NCBI GenBank assembly: GCA_017444345.1 | Contig: JAFSWW010000092.1 | Location: 1-50,314 of the forward strand | Origin: Synergistaceae bacterium | Lineage (GTDB): Bacteria; Synergistota; Synergistia; Synergistales; Aminobacteriaceae | DNA length: 50,314 nucleotides | Reading direction: 5' to 3' | In this document: in pieces, positions 4,089 through 18,366 of the stretch | Numbering within the stretch: position 1 is the first letter of the stretch | Layout of the letters: the number at the start of each line of letters is the position of its first letter | The notes under the pieces: generated by a model | Databases searched by the model: none | What the model was told of the DNA's origin: nothing | The model's input: only the letters and a program-made list of their open reading frames with translations | Translations under genes and position numbers: made by a program

Positions 4089-5225
4089 ATGAACGAGTAC
4101 AAATTAAAATATGGCTGTAATCCCGATCAAAGCCCAGCAAGAATCTTCATGAGAAATAATCAGGATTTACCGCTTGAGATTCTCAACGGCCGGCCGGGCT
4201 ATATAAATTTTCTTGACGCTTTGAATTCATGGCAGTTAGTGAAGGAATTACGCAAAAATTTAAATCTTCCTGCTGCTGCGTCATTCAAGCATGTGAGTCC
4301 GGCGGGTGCTGCTTTAGGTCTTCCCTTAAATGACAATGAGCGCAAATTATTCTTTGTTGACGAGAAATTAAATATAAATGACTCGTTACTTGCTTGTGCT
4401 TATGCAAGGGCGCGCGGGACTGACAGGCTTTCTTCTTTCGGGGACTGGGTAGCACTTAGTGATAAATGCGACAAGATTACAGCTGAATATATACGCCGTG
4501 AAGTTTCGGATGGAGTCATTGCCCCTGATTATGAGCCTGAAGCACTGGAAATCTTGAAATCTAAGCGCAAAGGAAATTATGCCGTTGTCAAGATTGACTC
4601 AAATTATGAGCCTGAAAATTTAGAGACCCGCGACGTTTTCGGGATAACTTTTGAGCAGTCGAGAAGCACCGCCCCCGTTTGTGAATTATCAAAATTTGAC
4701 TCTCTTGTTACTGTCTCGCAGATAATGCCGGAGTCCGCAAAACGTGATTTAATTCTTGCGCTGATAACTCTTAAATATACTCAGTCTAATTCAGTCTGTG
4801 TTACTAAAAACGGGCAGACACTGGGAGTCGGAGCTGGTCAGCAATCAAGACTTCATTGTGTAAAACTTGCATGTGATAAGGCAGATTTAAGAATTCTACG
4901 CGAACACCCGAAAATTTTAGATTTAGAATTTAATTCAAAACTTGGCCGGCCTGAACGAGACAACGCAATTAATGTAATTCTCACGACAAACAGCGGCATT
5001 ATTTCAGATTCCGAGCGTAAAGAATGGCTTGCAAGTAATTCCGGCGCGTCACTTGGCAGTGATGCATTCTTCCCGTTCGCTGATAATATAGAACGTGCTT
5101 ATTTGAGCGGCGTTAAATTTATTGCACAGCCGGGCGGATCTATTCGTGATGATTTAGTGATTAAGGCCTGCGACGATCATAATATTTCAATGGTAATGAC
5201 GGGTAAAAGATTATTCCATCATTAA
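4089..5225 (+). CDS. purH: Stand-alone AICAR formyltransferase (PurH C-terminal type)
   Basis: This 378-residue protein matches only the AICAR transformylase half of PurH. It has the catalytic Lys67-His68 in SFKHVSPAGAALG, the SFGDWVALSD segment and the C-terminal FIAQPGGSIRDD motif. The N-terminal MGS-like IMP cyclohydrolase domain of ordinary bifunctional PurH is absent; the PurO domain of the preceding gene can supply that activity. A clear ribosome-binding site, AAAGGAGTG, precedes the ATG. The 88-base gap upstream contains AT-rich promoter-like sequence (TATATATAT). A hairpin/G4 repeat lies downstream. Confidence 0.94.
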   Translation: MNEYKLKYGCNPDQSPARIFMRNNQDLPLEILNGRPGYINFLDALNSWQLVKELRKNLNLPAAASFKHVSPAGAALGLPLNDNERKLFFVDEKLNINDSLLACAYARARGTDRLSSFGDWVALSDKCDKITAEYIRREVSDGVIAPDYEPEALEILKSKRKGNYAVVKIDSNYEPENLETRDVFGITFEQSRSTAPVCELSKFDSLVTVSQIMPESAKRDLILALITLKYTQSNSVCVTKNGQTLGVGAGQQSRLHCVKLACDKADLRILREHPKILDLEFNSKLGRPERDNAINVILTTNSGIISDSERKEWLASNSGASLGSDAFFPFADNIERAYLSGVKFIAQPGGSIRDDLVIKACDDHNISMVMTGKRLFHH

Positions 5226-5255
5226 TATATATAGCAGCAAAAAATTTTTCCTAAT

Positions 5256-5302
5256 ATTCTACTCCCACCCGCCCACCCTGCTACTTCGTAGCAGAGTAGA
5301 AT
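5256..5302. repeat. Hairpin element with G-quadruplex loop, copy 1
   Basis: A 9-base outer inverted repeat (ATTCTACTC / GAGTAGAAT) encloses CCCACCCGCCCACCC (5264-5278) and an inner hairpin TGCTAC-TTC-GTAGCA (5279-5293). The complement of the C-rich part is GGGTGGGCGGGTGGG, four G3 runs with one-base loops. The same core recurs at 13690-13704 and 29256-29270 with different stems. Here it lies between two rightward genes and has no T-run, so it is not an ordinary intrinsic terminator. Confidence 0.85.
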
Positions 5303-5370
5303 AGGAGAAAAGCAAAATCTGTAATCACGCTATATTTATTATTTATTTATATAGAAGGGAGCAAATTTTT

Positions 5371-6012
5371 ATGTCTATTAATATCGAACTTGACGAGAAA
5401 CACGCGCAGAGACTCGAACTTGTCTGCAATGCGCTTGAACTTGATTCGGCCGGTGCAGTGTCAGAAGCAATTGATATTTTTTTCCGTAAACTCGTAACTG
5501 ACGGCAAAATTCCCATTGAAGAGTCAATGTCCGGAATCAGCGACCCTAAAGACGAGAAAGATTACAAGCTCGAAGATATACCCGATATTGATAATGCTAA
5601 GAAATACGGGCTCACAGCAAAGGAACGCGCAGGACTCGGCAAATCAGCAGCAAAAAATTTGAATAAGGCCGAACAGGGCGACCCTGCAGCACAAAACGTA
5701 ATGGGAACTTATTACGAGAGCGGCAACGGATTCGAGAAAAATTACGACAAGGCTATTTACTGGTACACTAAGGCGGCAAATCAGGGTAATACTAACGCTC
5801 AATATCATTTAGGAGTGCTTTATAACAAGGCAAAAGAGAATCCCCTCCGCGCTTATTTCTGGTTTGAAGTTGCGAGATTATGCGGCTTTAATATCACTCA
5901 TATACATCAAGACTATATAATCAGGTTGACTGAAATGCTTTCAGCCCGGCAAATTAAGCTAGCTCAAGATGAGGCAGTCAAGAAAGTTAAATCAATAAAG
6001 GGAGGCGAATAA
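5371..6012 (+). CDS. RHH (RelB/DinJ-like) domain fused to Sel1 repeats
   Basis: The first 50 residues (MSINIELDEKHAQRLELVC..., then AVSEAIDIFFRKLVTDGKIP) look like a RelB/DinJ-family ribbon-helix-helix antitoxin domain. After a charged linker, residues 97-170 contain Sel1-type repeats: AEQGDPAAQNVMGTYYESG, then KAIYWYTKAANQGNTNAQYHLGVLY, ending in a FWFEVARLCG helix. There is no signal peptide, so it should be cytoplasmic. Sel1 repeats mediate protein-protein contacts. No toxin gene adjoins it. It has a good ribosome-binding site (AGAAGGGAG) and its end carries the ribosome-binding site of purD, so it is in the purine operon. Role unknown. Confidence 0.8.
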   Translation: MSINIELDEKHAQRLELVCNALELDSAGAVSEAIDIFFRKLVTDGKIPIEESMSGISDPKDEKDYKLEDIPDIDNAKKYGLTAKERAGLGKSAAKNLNKAEQGDPAAQNVMGTYYESGNGFEKNYDKAIYWYTKAANQGNTNAQYHLGVLYNKAKENPLRAYFWFEVARLCGFNITHIHQDYIIRLTEMLSARQIKLAQDEAVKKVKSIKGGE

Positions 6013-6015
6013 TTT

Positions 6016-7272
6016 ATGAATATTCTCATAATCGGCGGGGGCGGGCGTGAACACGTTATCGCAAAATACGTCGCAAAGAATCCCAGAGTCAAAAAATTAT
6101 ATGCTCTTCCCGGCAACGGGGGGATCTCACAAATTGCCGAGTGCGTTAATATTTCAGCTGAAGACATTGACGGAATCGTAAAATTTGCTGAGACTCATTC
6201 TATAGATTTCGCAATTGTCGCACCTGATGATCCCTTAGCACTGGGAGCAGTTGACAGGCTCGAGTCAATCGGCGTTAAATGTTTCGGCCCGTCTCAGAAC
6301 GCAGCAATAATCGAGAGCAGCAAAATTTTCGCAAAAGAATTAATGACTCGTTATAACATTCCCACTGCAAAATATAAAGTCTTCACGAACTTAGACGAGG
6401 CTTTATCACATGCGGCTTTATCAGATTGTCCGATTGTAATAAAAGCTGACGGGCTCGCAAAGGGGAAGGGCGTTACAGTCGCTGAAAATTTCAAACAGGC
6501 AAGGGACGCTATTATTTCATGCATGAAGGATAAAGCATTCGGAGCGAGCGGGGAGAAAATTTTAATTGAAGAGTGTCTACGAGGCCCGGAAGTTACTGTT
6601 TTAGCTTTAACTGACGGCAAAACTATACTCCCGCTGATTTCGTCAATGGATCACAAAAGAATCTATGACGGCAACAAAGGCCCTAATACCGGCGGAATGG
6701 GAGTCGCTGCTCCAAATTTTTATTATAGTGATGAGATTGCAGACGAATGCATGAAAAAAATATTTCTGCCCACTATTAACGCACTTAATCAGGAAGGCCG
6801 CAAATTTAAAGGATGTCTCTATTTCGGGTTAATGCTGACTCGGGACGGCGCAAAAGTCATCGAGTATAATTGCAGATTTGGAGATCCTGAAGCTGAAGCC
6901 GTTTTGCCTTTGCTTGATTGTGATTTGCTAGATATTTTGCTTGCTGTACGTGATGAGAGATTGAACGAGCTTAATATAAAGTTTAAAGACTCTGCGTCTT
7001 GCTGTGTTATTCTAGCGTCAGGAGGTTATCCCGGCAAATATTTATCAGGCTATGAAATCGATTTCGGCGATGTTGATAAGATAGAAGGAGTCGAAATTTT
7101 CCACTGCGGGACAAAATTTGAAAACGGGCAATATTACACGGCAGGAGGGCGAGTCTTAGCTGTTAATGCAGTCGCGAATGATTTTCCTTCAGCAAGAACT
7201 AAAGCATATGAGGCCGTCAACTGCATAAAATTTGAAAATATGCGCTACAGGTCAGATATAGGAGCGAGATAA
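6016..7272 (+). CDS. purD: Phosphoribosylamine-glycine ligase (GAR synthetase)
   Basis: PurD joins glycine to phosphoribosylamine using ATP, producing the substrate of PurN. The 418 residues have the N-terminal IIGGGGREHVIA motif, the ATP-grasp core (PIVIKADGLAKGKGVTVA), the EECLRGPEVTVLAL strand, the GPNTGGMGV loop and the metal-binding EYNCRFGDPEAEAVL segment. Length and motif order are normal. AAAGGGAGG at the end of the preceding gene is its ribosome-binding site, with only 3 bases between the genes. Confidence 0.97.
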   Translation: MNILIIGGGGREHVIAKYVAKNPRVKKLYALPGNGGISQIAECVNISAEDIDGIVKFAETHSIDFAIVAPDDPLALGAVDRLESIGVKCFGPSQNAAIIESSKIFAKELMTRYNIPTAKYKVFTNLDEALSHAALSDCPIVIKADGLAKGKGVTVAENFKQARDAIISCMKDKAFGASGEKILIEECLRGPEVTVLALTDGKTILPLISSMDHKRIYDGNKGPNTGGMGVAAPNFYYSDEIADECMKKIFLPTINALNQEGRKFKGCLYFGLMLTRDGAKVIEYNCRFGDPEAEAVLPLLDCDLLDILLAVRDERLNELNIKFKDSASCCVILASGGYPGKYLSGYEIDFGDVDKIEGVEIFHCGTKFENGQYYTAGGRVLAVNAVANDFPSARTKAYEAVNCIKFENMRYRSDIGAR

Positions 7273-11327: not shown

Positions 11328-11358
11328 TTGAATAATACCCCCCCCCCCCCCCTATAAT
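11328..11358 (+). promoter_or_regulatory. Candidate phase-variable promoter with a C15 spacer
   Basis: A TTGAAT (-35-like, 11328-11333) and a perfect TATAAT (-10, 11353-11358) are separated by 19 bases, 15 of which are an unbroken run of C (11338-11352) abutting the -10 box. Spacer length sets sigma70 promoter strength, with 17 the best, so slippage of this tract would change expression of the downstream small-protein, YkgJ, radical SAM and precursor genes. It lies just past a terminator, as expected for the first promoter of a new operon. Confidence 0.65.
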
Positions 11359-11393
11359 TTACGCAAATACTTTATAGAAAAGTGGTCATAATC

Positions 11394-11561
11394 ATGTCAA
11401 CAGTAAAATATCAAAGTGTCTGCATTTATTGCGGTAAGGGCGGCTCTTCAACATCAATAAGCGAGAGTCTTGGTCAGCCCCATTCAAATCCTCCCAGTAT
11501 AGGCGGCAGATGTCCATCAAGTCCGGACGGCAAGCATAAACCTAAATGGGTTAAAATTTAG
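11394..11561 (+). CDS. Small Cys-rich (zinc-ribbon-like) protein, 55 residues
   Basis: A short frame, ATG 11394 to TAG 11559-11561, encodes 55 residues with a CIYCGKGG knuckle at 10-17, then GGRCP and SPDGKHKPKW near the C-terminus. A CxxC plus a later Cys and His suggests a bound metal. I recall similar small proteins with the GxRCxxSPDGKH ending but no assigned function. It is the first gene after the C15 promoter and is 12 bases ahead of the YkgJ gene, whose start has no ribosome-binding site of its own, so coupling is likely. Its own ribosome-binding site is weak (AAAGTGG). Confidence 0.7.
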   Translation: MSTVKYQSVCIYCGKGGSSTSISESLGQPHSNPPSIGGRCPSSPDGKHKPKWVKI

Positions 11562-11572
11562 CGCGTAAAAAA

Positions 11573-11875
11573 ATGTTCGTGTGCAAAAAATGCGGCTCCT
11601 GCTGTGAGTTAATGAATTTCTTGCAGGCTCAAAATTTGCCGGAAATATCACAAATCGCAGCAGAGTTAAATAACGGCTCAGGAACTTGCAAATATTTTGA
11701 CTCTGACTCAAGACTATGCAGAATCTATGACTCCCGGCCCATTATCTGCAACAACAAAAAATTTTATGAACAGAATCTAAAAAATGTCATGACACGCGAA
11801 AAATTTGACGAGATTTTAATATCTTCCTGCGAATCAATAAGGAGCGGCAATTATGAAAGATTACGCGAAAATTAA
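11573..11875 (+). CDS. YkgJ-family cysteine-cluster protein
   Basis: The 100-residue protein starts with CKKCGSCC (4-11) and continues with CKYF, CRIYDSRPIIC, the Cys pattern of the YkgJ/UPF0153 family thought to hold zinc or an iron-sulfur cluster. Family members often sit near radical SAM and peptide-modification genes. Its 3-prime end overlaps the radical SAM gene by 23 bases and supplies that gene's GGAG site. The start could be ATG 11573 or GTG 11579; neither has a good ribosome-binding site. Its role in this locus is inferred only from position. Confidence 0.85.
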   Translation: MFVCKKCGSCCELMNFLQAQNLPEISQIAAELNNGSGTCKYFDSDSRLCRIYDSRPIICNNKKFYEQNLKNVMTREKFDEILISSCESIRSGNYERLREN

Positions 11876-12898
11876 TTTTTTACGAGACAAGAAAGCAGCT
11901 CAGGACGAGTCAAATTATCTGAAGCGGCTTATATCTGAAAATTTATATCCTAAAAAATTTATGATGCCTTTAACACTGCAATTTGAGCTTACTTCACATT
12001 GTAACGTCCATTGTAAGCACTGTTATAATTTATCGGGCGAGAATAATTCTAAACCTGATAGAATGACTCCCGAAAAATGGGTAAATTTTGCGCGCTATCT
12101 CGTCAATCACGGCGGAATCTTTCAGTGCGTAATTTCAGGAGGCGAGCCGCTTTTACTGGGTGATGACCTATTCGAGATCATGAATATTTTACACGATGAC
12201 GGGACTATTTTTTGCTTATATCAAATGGATTATTAATGACTCCCGGAAAAGTTAAATCATTCGCGAAATATCGTTATAAATGGCTGCAAATTTCCATAGA
12301 CGGGGCGACTCGTGAACGTCATGACTCTTTCAGGCAGAAAGCAGGGAGCTTTGACGCAGCTATTAAAGCAGTCTTCATGTTGTCAAGTGCGGGGATTCCT
12401 GTAATGATTGCGCACTCTGTAACACCTGAGAATTTATGCGAACTCGATAAAATGTGCTCGCTTGCTTATGAACTCGGAGCGGCGGGAATAATTTTAGGCG
12501 AAATAATGCCCAGCGGACGAACTTTTTTGAATCAGGAAATATTATTAAATCATGAGCAGAGAAATTTTTTACACGAGAAAATTAACGAGAATGCGGCCAA
12601 GTTCTCCGGAAAAATGCAAGTACAAAGAAGTTCACTCACAAAGATTCAATTAATGCGCTCACAAAATTCACCCATGACAGGAGCAATTATCAGACCCGAC
12701 GGAAATATAAGACTCGATTGTGTAGCTCCGTTTGTTATCGGGAATGTTTTAGACGGTGATTTTTGCGAAATTTGGCAGAGTAAAGCCCATAATATTTGGA
12801 GCAGACCGGAAATTATTAATTATATTGACTCGTGGGACGATATAGACGAAATTAATCACGGAATCAAGAATTATTTTGACTCTGACATAATATTATAA
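11853..12898 (+). pseudogene. Radical SAM peptide-modifying enzyme, interrupted by one frameshift
   Basis: Two frames, 11853-12236 and 12212-12898, together encode one radical SAM protein of about 349 residues. The first part has CNVHCKHC (CX3CX2C, Cys50/54/57) that binds the 4Fe-4S cluster, and ISGGEPL (95-100). The second has WLQISIDGATRERHDSFR and a SPASM-like end (IIRPDGNIRLDC, then IGNVL and EIW) with few cysteines. The break is at a T6 run (12209-12214): one more T would give an unbroken frame reading I-F-L-L-I-S-N-G. It could be a real mutation, slippage, or an assembly error. Its PqqD and precursor neighbours point to a RiPP maturase. Confidence 0.85.
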
Positions 12899-12921
12899 TT
12901 GTATAGGGAGGAAATTTTTTA

Positions 12922-13098
12922 ATGAAGCAATATTCTAAACCTGAAGTAATTAGCAGTTCCAAGCCAGTTTTTGCGTTCCCTGCTGTAGGTCTTGCATTAA
13001 TCGGAGGTTATGCGGCCGGCCAAGCTGTTAAGAAATTATTTGACGTAAACATGATAAATCGTGATAATTTGCTTGAACTTGAGCCCGTTATATCATGA
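12922..13098 (+). CDS. Putative RiPP precursor peptide 1 (58 residues)
   Basis: ATG 12922 follows a strong AGGGAGG site by 10 bases. The peptide starts MKQYSKPEV, with the Tyr-x-x-Pro motif (Tyr4, Pro7) that leader peptides use to bind PqqD-type recognition domains. A hydrophobic Gly/Ala-rich middle (FAFPAVGLALIGGYAAG, 18-33) leads to a tail ending LEPVIS. It aligns along its length with the peptide at 13394-13576: shared KxYxxPxV, Ser-Lys at 13-14, F-x-x-P-A at 17-21 and LEP near the end. It overlaps the PqqD gene by 4 bases (ATGA). No enzyme-like features. The modified residue is unknown. Confidence 0.75.
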   Translation: MKQYSKPEVISSSKPVFAFPAVGLALIGGYAAGQAVKKLFDVNMINRDNLLELEPVIS

Positions 13099-13397
13099 AT
13101 ACTGCTTATAATATGCTGGAAAATTTTATTCCCGTTCGTAATGCCCTGAAAGTTAGAGAGGACGGAAATTTTTTAATCGCGGCAAATCACGAGAAGGAAA
13201 TTTTTTATCTGAACTCTACGGCTCGTGAATTCTGGGAATTTATTGACGGAAATATAAATATTGACTCAATTTGCGAAAAGTTTTTATGCGAATATGATAT
13301 TAACCGCGACTCACTGGAAAATGATTTAGTGAATCTTTTACGCGATTTACAATGGAAAAAGTTAATCAGGCTCAAAATAGGGGGTGATTTGTCATGA
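13095..13397 (+). CDS. PqqD-like RiPP recognition element protein
   Basis: The 100-residue protein has the PqqD-fold pattern: a strand-rich start (NFIPVRNALKVREDG), the FYLNSTAREFWEFIDG segment where the domain typically has LN-x-TA-x-x-IW, then IDSICEKFLCEYDI and a C-terminal helix pair with DLVNLLRDLQWKKLI. PqqD-type domains bind the leader of a precursor peptide and present it to the radical SAM enzyme. It lies between, and overlaps both, precursor-like genes (ATGA junctions on each side), a strong sign of one translational unit. Confidence 0.85.
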   Translation: MNTAYNMLENFIPVRNALKVREDGNFLIAANHEKEIFYLNSTAREFWEFIDGNINIDSICEKFLCEYDINRDSLENDLVNLLRDLQWKKLIRLKIGGDLS

Positions 13398-13576
13398 AAA
13401 AATATATAACTCCTTCAGTAATGGGAACTAGTAAAGGCGGATTCTTGATTCCGGCGATTGCTGGCTTGAGTGTTGCGAGTGCTTTTATTGCGGGGGCTGC
13501 TGCATCTATACTCAAGGGCGATAAAAGCGTCTCTGTTGATATGCCTTCAGGACTTGAGCCAATATACGCGAGTTAA
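13394..13576 (+). CDS. Putative RiPP precursor peptide 2 (60 residues)
   Basis: This peptide starts MKKYITPSV, again with Tyr4-x-x-Pro7, has Ser13-Lys14 and F-L-I-P-A at 17-21, a Gly/Ala-rich hydrophobic middle (GLSVASAFIAGAAASIL, 24-40) and ends SGLEPIYAS. These match peptide 1 position for position although sequence identity is modest, as expected for paralogous precursors sharing a leader and differing in the core. A GGGGTG site precedes the ATG. An overlapping frame at 13470-13664 is spurious. It is followed by a terminator at 13608. Confidence 0.75.
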   Translation: MKKYITPSVMGTSKGGFLIPAIAGLSVASAFIAGAAASILKGDKSVSVDMPSGLEPIYAS

Positions 13577-13607
13577 TAAAAATTTTGCAGCTTATAATAT
13601 AATTTCA

Positions 13608-13642
13608 GGGAGAGTGAGATTTATTCTTATTCTCCCGTTTTT
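13608..13642 (+). terminator. Intrinsic terminator after the peptide-modification locus
   Basis: GGGAGA pairs with TCTCCC, with further weaker pairs inside, and is followed by GTTTTTATTT. The lead-in TTTCAGGGAG matches the terminator at 11265, so the locus is bounded by two similar terminators. Confidence 0.75.
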
Positions 13643-17565: not shown

Positions 17566-18366
17566 TTATGTTTGCCCCCCCCCCCCTACGTAAAAATACA
17601 CATTCAAAAATTTAGCTTTCTTTTCGTGATTGAGCATATACACATTAAATAATCTCTCGGACATGAAAGCAGGCACACGAATTTGATACGGGCTATAATA
17701 AACCTGATAATTAATGCGTTTATCTATCTCGTCAAGCACAGCAAAAAGCCACTCGCAATAATCGCAAAAATCTTCATATTTCATGATAAACATATTGCGC
17801 GCAGAAAGTTTATTATGATTCATTATTTTATTAAATGCCGGGTAATATTCGCTGAATTGACTCGCGATAATATTTTCAAGAACTCTTAAATCCTCGCTGA
17901 AATGTGATTCATTATATTGAGTCGCTGCAGAAAAAGGAAAAATTTGCCTGCGAACTAGTATAATTTTGCCGCTCTCTAAAATATTTATTATTTGTTGAAG
18001 GTCAATCTTGTAATTCAAAATTTCGCTTTCAGGTTTATTAATTTCTTCAGTGAAAAATTTACTCTCGTCAAACGCAAAGAAACGCCGATAATGCATTAAG
18101 CCTATATATTTAATTTCAGAGTATAAAATTTTTATATTCTTCCATGCCCAGTAAAGAGCCGTCAACTCTGAATAATAGGGATTCTTTTCGCTGATGTTGT
18201 CGCATGGCCGGCCATTAAGTGAATTATCCGGCTGAATGTGTAAATCTAAGTCAGTGAGAGCCCGCCCGCAGTGAATCGGCAAGAAAATATTATTATCATT
18301 TTGCGGCATATTATAAGGTTTATGATAGCAGATTAAAATTTTTAACTGGTCAGCGATATTTTGCAT
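17566..18366 (-). CDS. DUF4422 protein, likely surface-polysaccharide glycosyltransferase
   Basis: The 266-residue protein matches the DUF4422 family: ILICYHKP near the start, PIHCGRAL, then NPYYSELTALYWAWKN, YIGLMHYRRFF, and near the end the RVPAFMSERLFNVYM segment. Members occur in capsule and LPS clusters and are presumed glycosyltransferases. The ribosome-binding site is AAAGGA. The last residues (VGGGGQT) are read from a 12-base G run (17575-17586 on this strand as C), next to the stop. Losing one G would instead extend the frame by about 50 residues to a TGA at 17418-17420. It is cotranscribed with no obvious neighbour. Confidence 0.83.
   Translation of the reverse strand: MQNIADQLKILICYHKPYNMPQNDNNIFLPIHCGRALTDLDLHIQPDNSLNGRPCDNISEKNPYYSELTALYWAWKNIKILYSEIKYIGLMHYRRFFAFDESKFFTEEINKPESEILNYKIDLQQIINILESGKIILVRRQIFPFSAATQYNESHFSEDLRVLENIIASQFSEYYPAFNKIMNHNKLSARNMFIMKYEDFCDYCEWLFAVLDEIDKRINYQVYYSPYQIRVPAFMSERLFNVYMLNHEKKAKFLNVYFYVGGGGQT
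17575..17586. repeat. C12/G12 homopolymer at the end of the DUF4422 gene
   Basis: Twelve C's on the + strand read as GGG x4 in the DUF4422 frame. Length changes switch the C-terminus among three forms: as here a stop after two more codons, one G more a stop after about five, one G fewer a long basic extension. Confidence 0.9.

Follow-up and report, generated by a model that had tools for sequence, protein, structure and literature searches.

We analyzed a stretch of 50,314 nucleotides (the window) from the 2.33-Mb genome of a Synergistaceae bacterium (assembly GCA_017444345.1, contig JAFSWW010000092.1, positions 1 to 50,314), in which a compact operon on the forward strand, at positions 11328-13640, carries a radical S-adenosylmethionine (SAM) enzyme, a PqqD protein and two candidate precursors of ribosomally synthesized and post-translationally modified peptides (RiPPs). 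The operon begins at a sigma-70-like promoter (TTGAAT-N19-TATAAT; 11328-11358), the spacer of which consists mostly of a run of 15 C residues (C15; 11338-11352) and forms a putative phase-variable switch. The first open reading frame (ORF; 11394-11561) encodes a small, Cys-containing, zinc-ribbon-like protein without a family match and is followed by a YkgJ (CxxCxxCC) protein (11573-11875; Pfam PF03692, E = 4e-10), which is a conserved member of the cassette. The radical SAM enzyme is encoded in two overlapping frames: an N-terminal part with the CX3CX2C motif (11853-12236; Radical_SAM, E = 7e-11) and a C-terminal part comprising a degenerate SPASM/twitch domain with a single conserved Cys in the motif RLDC (12212-12898; Radical_SAM, E = 1.5e-8), the break lying at a run of six T residues (12208-12213). 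Downstream are precursor peptide A (58 residues, MKQYSKPEV...FAFPAVGLALIGGYAAGQAV...LELEPVIS; 12922-13098), a stand-alone PqqD-type RiPP recognition element (RRE; 13095-13397; Pfam PqqD, E = 2.9e-12), precursor peptide B (60 residues, MKKYITPSV...FLIPAIAGLSVASAFIAGAAASILKG...GLEPIYAS; 13394-13576) and an intrinsic terminator, in which a strong hairpin (z-score -5.7) is followed by T residues (13608-13636).

All of the parts that an earlier note on this DNA had listed were found where it placed them. The overlapping starts that it described among the last three genes are ATGA start/stop junctions, which join peptide A to PqqD and PqqD to peptide B, and both peptides indeed share MK(K/Q)YxxPxV, F-x-x-P-A, a Gly/Ala-rich middle and an LEP tail. 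Absent from that note were the C15 promoter tract, the terminator and the instability of the zinc-ribbon ORF. The frame of this ORF is broken in the nearest relative (genome G017, locus L014, the PqqD of which is 92% identical), and a homologue lies upstream of the cassette at locus L023; it is probably dispensable to the cassette and not a stable part of it.

A search with PqqD found a match in 10 of 120 relatives, nine belonging to the same genus and one (G046) to another genus of the family. With a profile of the enzyme (E <= 1e-60), matches were obtained in 10 of 188 Synergistota genomes (its own genome included), 23 of 189 genomes of the order Selenomonadales and 1 of 294 sampled planctomycetes; two of the 23 Selenomonadales matches were divergent and had no accompanying peptides. 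Beyond the window, the cassette occurs at 9-10 Synergistaceae loci, in ~21 Selenomonadales genomes and in one planctomycete. The earlier note had proposed searching relatives for the same arrangement, and YxxP peptides and PqqD were located next to the enzyme in nearly all of them. Among 34 loci, including that of the window, the enzyme was present in 34, a PqqD-like protein in 32 and a YkgJ-like protein in 28.

We collected 80 YxxP peptides of ~50-105 residues from 29 loci, most of which contained 2-6 peptides. Because the peptides were selected for Y-x-x-P followed, in most cases, by a hydrophobic residue ([IVL]) at position +2 after the Pro, the invariance of the Tyr and Pro follows from the selection itself, as does, in part, that of position +5. 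Three wrong-frame ORFs that matched the pattern were taken out by hand before counting, and loci L203-L206, in which the enzyme was present and the standard peptide arrangement absent, contributed no peptides to the statistics. Independently of the selection, a second hydrophobic-hydrophobic-Pro step was observed 16-19 residues past the Tyr in 60 of the 80 peptides. The middle of the peptides, presumably the modified core, was composed of 22% Ala and 11% Gly, and Cys was absent from 56 peptides, including both from the window. The tails differed by lineage, with LEP or LEPC in Synergistaceae and LPSL or LTxRK in Selenomonadaceae.

Just downstream of the enzyme, short ORFs carrying YxxP near the N terminus were concentrated well beyond chance (1.05 per kb at the 34 loci, compared with 0.014 per kb in the rest of the same DNA, a 77-fold difference). 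In comparison with G017, the ratio of nonsynonymous to synonymous substitution rates (dN/dS) was 0.16 for peptide A and 0.17 for peptide B, values comparable to those of the enzymes. Homologous loci that lacked the small ORFs, or ORFs that were not conserved in frame, were the two outcomes that the earlier note had set against its own proposal; the 80 peptides from 29 loci and the clear excess of synonymous changes are the reverse of both. No model in Pfam, NCBIfam or PHROGs matched the peptides at a meaningful E-value, and the curated libraries contained no model for the peptides or for this enzyme. The earlier note could match the peptides to no class, and this was borne out within the models and open-access papers searched. 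The combination of YkgJ, a radical SAM enzyme stripped of its auxiliary clusters, a discrete PqqD, several Ala/Gly-rich YxxP peptides and a homopolymer promoter was represented by no family model and by no paper in the open-access literature searched.

The cassette contained the features of a RiPP cluster with a discrete RRE, namely a PqqD/RRE-fold protein, short ORFs with a conserved leader and a variable core under purifying selection, and the RRE residues used for YxxP leaders. In the linear polyphosphorylated peptide (LPP) system, Asn33 and Asp70 of LppB hydrogen-bond the YxxP leader, and their equivalents are described as conserved in many RREs of pyrroloquinoline quinone (PQQ) and lasso peptide systems (PMC13381572). 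Asn40 and Asp77 of the PqqD-like protein were invariant in 30 of 30 loci, and their 37-residue spacing is that of the LppB pair; the equivalence is drawn from this spacing in the domain and does not rest on aligned structures. Because both residues are invariant with the LppB spacing, we infer, with good support, that PqqD captures the YxxP leader. The cassette is a RiPP system in kind, and its peptides very probably undergo RiPP maturation, as judged from these sequence features.

The frame break in the enzyme gene bears on whether the system is still functional in this strain. The gene is intact in a single frame in G017, and the dN/dS values relative to L014 were 0.14 for the N-terminal half and 0.08 for the C-terminal half. 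Because both halves are still under purifying selection, the break either arose very recently, is reversible or stems from an error in the assembly. In G042, which belongs to the same genus, the same gene is broken separately, at a run of eight G residues. Programmed frameshifting was not favoured, as other species have a single intact frame. It might also be supposed that the radical SAM gene is dead and that the operon is decaying, leaving a relic in this strain; the breaks in the window (T run) and in G042 (G run), and the broken zinc-ribbon frame in L014, would fit such a history. However, selection is still evident in both the enzyme halves (0.08-0.14) and the peptides (0.16-0.17), the enzyme is intact in most relatives, and an assembly error or a reversible switch accounts for the break equally well. 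We therefore consider decay improbable.

An AlphaFold model of the enzyme displayed the radical SAM fold (predicted local distance difference test score of 84). In distant relatives, the SPASM/twitch signature GGCGAGRxYC ... PC has been retained, whereas of its Cys residues the cassette enzymes have lost all except one. The surviving Cys (RLDC; residue 289 in L028 numbering) was found in 30 of 30 members, along with CX3CX2C. This pattern, in which the radical SAM cluster is the only one and a single non-cluster Cys is strictly conserved, is that of the proteusin epimerases (PoyD, OspD), which contain the radical SAM cluster only; one Cys, required for catalysis, is strictly conserved among almost 70 PoyD homologues, and epimerization takes place on residues such as Val and Ile (reviewed in PMC8326336). 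Because the auxiliary-cluster ligands have been lost and one C-terminal Cys kept, and because the Cys pattern and the Cys-free hydrophobic substrates match those of PoyD-type enzymes, our first choice among the possible chemistries is L-to-D epimerization with the conserved Cys as hydrogen donor. This assignment by analogy is tentative, and the enzyme may well perform other chemistry.

Proteusin precursors also resemble the peptides in their hydrophobic cores rich in Ala, Val, Gly and Ile. However, PoyD has its own C-terminal RRE and proteusin leaders are nitrile-hydratase-like, whereas the cassette has a stand-alone RRE and leaders with a short KxYxxP motif, and for this reason we did not file the cassette as a proteusin system. 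Methyltransferases and other proteusin enzymes are also absent from it.

Two other chemistries were weighed against epimerization. The presence of SuiB and PqqE among the fold neighbours of the enzyme, and the fact that PqqE likewise works with a discrete PqqD (PMC8326336), would suit the formation of a carbon-carbon, ether or cyclophane crosslink in the style of streptide, PQQ or triceptides. However, the known crosslinking enzymes have auxiliary Fe-S clusters in the SPASM domain, of which a single ligand Cys is left here, and the peptide middles share no aromatic/Lys/Arg pair, with Trp and Tyr accounting for 0.1% and 1.2% of the residues there, respectively; a crosslink is therefore rather unlikely. 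Thioether maturation of the sactipeptide or ranthipeptide kind, through the Cys of the LEPC tail found in many Synergistaceae peptides, would agree with SkfB being the nearest structure. SkfB, a sactisynthase, however, carries an auxiliary cluster as well as a fused RRE and links Cys thiols, whereas most of the cassette substrates, including both in the window, contain no Cys and the auxiliary-cluster ligands have gone from the enzyme. We regard this chemistry as very unlikely, and epimerization was retained as the preferred one.

Assignments to lasso, PQQ, mycofactocin, GeoRSP, SynChlorMet and sactipeptide systems were rejected, as NCBIfam matches fell far below the cut-offs and partner genes were missing. 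In particular, neither the maturase nor PqqD matched a PQQ or mycofactocin equivalog in NCBIfam above the curated cut-offs. The cassette shares with PQQ biosynthesis (PqqA/PqqD/PqqE) a discrete PqqD, a radical SAM enzyme and YxxP-like leader recognition, but auxiliary clusters are present in PqqE, the product PQQ is a small cofactor derived from a single conserved peptide, and PqqB, PqqC and PqqF are lacking here. With lasso peptides and LPPs it shares a [Y/W]xxPx[LVI] leader, a discrete RRE and apparently the same Asn/Asp pair; it differs in having a radical SAM enzyme, and the B2 peptidase and macrolactam synthetase of lasso systems are absent from the operon and from the conserved neighbours at the 34 loci, as are from the cassette the HprK-like kinase, SpI-like peptidase and NTP (nucleoside triphosphate) transferase that accompany the RRE in LPP systems. 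A role of the peptide as the scaffold of a small redox cofactor, in the manner of PQQ or mycofactocin, could be proposed from the association of PqqD and a radical SAM enzyme with a conserved short C-terminal L-E-P motif. Against this, each locus has 2-6 divergent peptides, the tails differ in other phyla, and oxidases, dehydrogenases and peptidases are not conserved alongside, so that a cofactor role appears highly improbable.

As a separate observation, another part of the window genome (G000:C114:1400-4250; L221, L002) contains two small peptides with a YIPAE leader, an HprK-like kinase, a PqqD/RRE protein, a short type I signal peptidase-like protein and an NTP_transf_5 protein (E = 7e-41). 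These genes together constitute the set known from the LPP RiPP family; their occurrence in a member of the Synergistaceae contrasts with the description of that family as restricted to Bacillota (PMC13381572).

We further analyzed the promoter. At the same place in L014, the sequence is TTGACT-N16-TATAAT with a C10 tract in the spacer. When 405 kb from the 34 loci were scanned for sigma-70-like promoters with a homopolymer of at least 7 in the spacer, such promoters were found in 8 of the 34 loci, all directly upstream of the cassette, and nowhere else in the 405 kb. The eight tracts were C15 (window), C10 (G017), C9, G10, G10, T11, T12 and T13. The base varied by lineage, and G10 and T13 occupied the same position in two close Selenomonadaceae relatives. 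Genome-wide, strict C- or G-spacer promoters numbered 32 in 31 carrier genomes, compared with 1 for the reversed-pattern control. A homopolymer between the -35 and -10 elements is likewise the arrangement of the phase-variable promoters known in Neisseria, Helicobacter, Bordetella and others; those described here differ in that they stand on a RiPP operon, use three different bases and occur in two phyla that are unnamed for such promoters in the open-access literature searched. On these promoter sequences, it seems likely that the cassette is phase-variable in two phyla.

Alternatively, the tracts could be neutral repeats that are common in these genomes and have no switching role for the operon. 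The window genome (G000) has ~28 C tracts of at least 12, most of them not in promoter form, as would be expected in that case. However, the tracts lie exactly between the -35 and -10 elements in 8 of the 34 loci and consist of C, G or T depending on the lineage, and such promoters are otherwise absent from the same 405 kb. We consider neutral repeats unlikely, yet far from negligible as an explanation. Many of the ~28 poly-C tracts precede a TGCGTAATTTAC-like stretch, and together they look like either a repeat scattered through the genome or an extensive set of contingency loci. The idea that the C15 tract is a mere part of a dispersed repeat was rejected and the promoter reading kept, because only three of the ~28 tracts have promoter form.

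Other homopolymer tracts were noted. In the Selenomonadales carriers L212, L213, L214, L219 and L220, promoters with a poly-G spacer (TTGACAA...GGGGGGGGGGATAAT) precede other genes, which encode repeat-rich, apparently surface or secreted-type proteins, a C-type-lectin-like protein and another radical SAM enzyme; these genes possibly form a small phase-variable regulon. In the window, a C12 tract (17575-17586) at the 3' end of a DUF4422 gene on the reverse strand (17566-18366; likely a glycosyltransferase) is a candidate site of C-terminal slippage.

Several neighbours of the cassette recurred at the 34 loci as optional members. DUF1232 was found in 11 loci and an LRAT-fold thiol enzyme in 7, each in both phyla, and the latter adjoins the peptides in several Synergistaceae loci. 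The recurrent regulators were of the XRE type in 10 Selenomonadales loci and of the WYL type in 5 Synergistaceae loci. Carriage by phages or plasmids was rejected, as no PqqD relative was found among viral contigs and the enzyme had no match in 72,556 plasmids at E <= 1e-40. In one Synergistaceae genome (L018), a second, MoaA-like radical SAM gene closely follows the cassette, at ~800-1600 bases past the start of PqqD as counted on the cassette strand. A relative in Blautia sp. MSJ-9 (L030) was excluded from the cassette, since it has neither PqqD nor YxxP peptides and belongs to another system; at ~4450-6900, two radical SAM genes lie by a Cys-rich peptide of 60 residues with SPEGGCSPDCPPWDVDCGP, a putative different RiPP locus.

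We propose the following mechanism. At a permissive tract length the operon would be transcribed, and slippage of the homopolymer in the promoter spacer would switch expression. PqqD would bind the K-x-Y-x-x-P-x-[IV] leader of each peptide and present the peptide to the radical SAM enzyme, which would abstract C-H hydrogens in the hydrophobic Ala/Gly-rich stretch past the second conserved Pro. The YkgJ protein would help maturation, and one enzyme would serve the 2-6 different peptides of a locus. The leader would then be removed by a protease encoded outside the operon, and the hydrophobic, multi-variant product would act on the membranes of competitors. We infer all of the steps later than leader capture, and to us the chances that the mature peptides are membrane-active in the manner of bacteriocins are evenly balanced.

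Several observations weigh against this mechanism. The closest solved structure to the enzyme is that of SkfB, which forms thioethers (template modelling score of 0.68), whereas the epimerase EpeE ranks 45th (0.57). The conserved Cys could still bind a metal jointly with another protein, because it occupies a former cluster-ligand position. The site of modification is without direct indication, as core residues beyond the leader and the second Pro are never invariant. The enzyme gene of the window is frame-broken, and therefore the strain as assembled may make no product. A difference in tract length was observed between species only (C15 with a spacer of 19 compared with C10 with a spacer of 16) and not within one strain, and 26 of the 34 loci have no homopolymer promoter. 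Finally, no exporter, leader protease or immunity gene recurs as a neighbour across the 34 loci; the absence of a protease and an exporter, which the earlier note had remarked on, is true of the window locus and also of these conserved neighbours.

With these points taken into account, the explanation as a whole, in which the operon produces a hitherto undescribed family of RiPPs, is in our view probable. The most specific formulation would be a RiPP class that spans Synergistota, Bacillota (Negativicutes) and Planctomycetota, in which a radical SAM enzyme stripped of its auxiliary clusters, together with a discrete PqqD, puts D-residues into sets of hydrophobic, Ala/Gly-rich peptides, yielding membrane pores or mixtures of bacteriocins, repeatedly under homopolymer phase-variable promoters; in all of these particulars together, it is unlikely to be correct.

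The cassette offers a RiPP family that is coherent and open to testing and that comprises dozens of natural precursors, found in anaerobes of the gut, rumen and mouth, for which the curated libraries contain no model. For peptide engineering, a single enzyme with several dissimilar substrates that lack Cys has appeal. Should the enzyme prove to be an epimerase, the family would link YxxP/PqqD systems to peptides containing D-amino acids. Moreover, a homopolymer promoter that has repeatedly arisen on a peptide operon would suggest that production is sufficiently costly or risky to be gambled on cell by cell, and such a gamble would bear on why commensals make these peptides.

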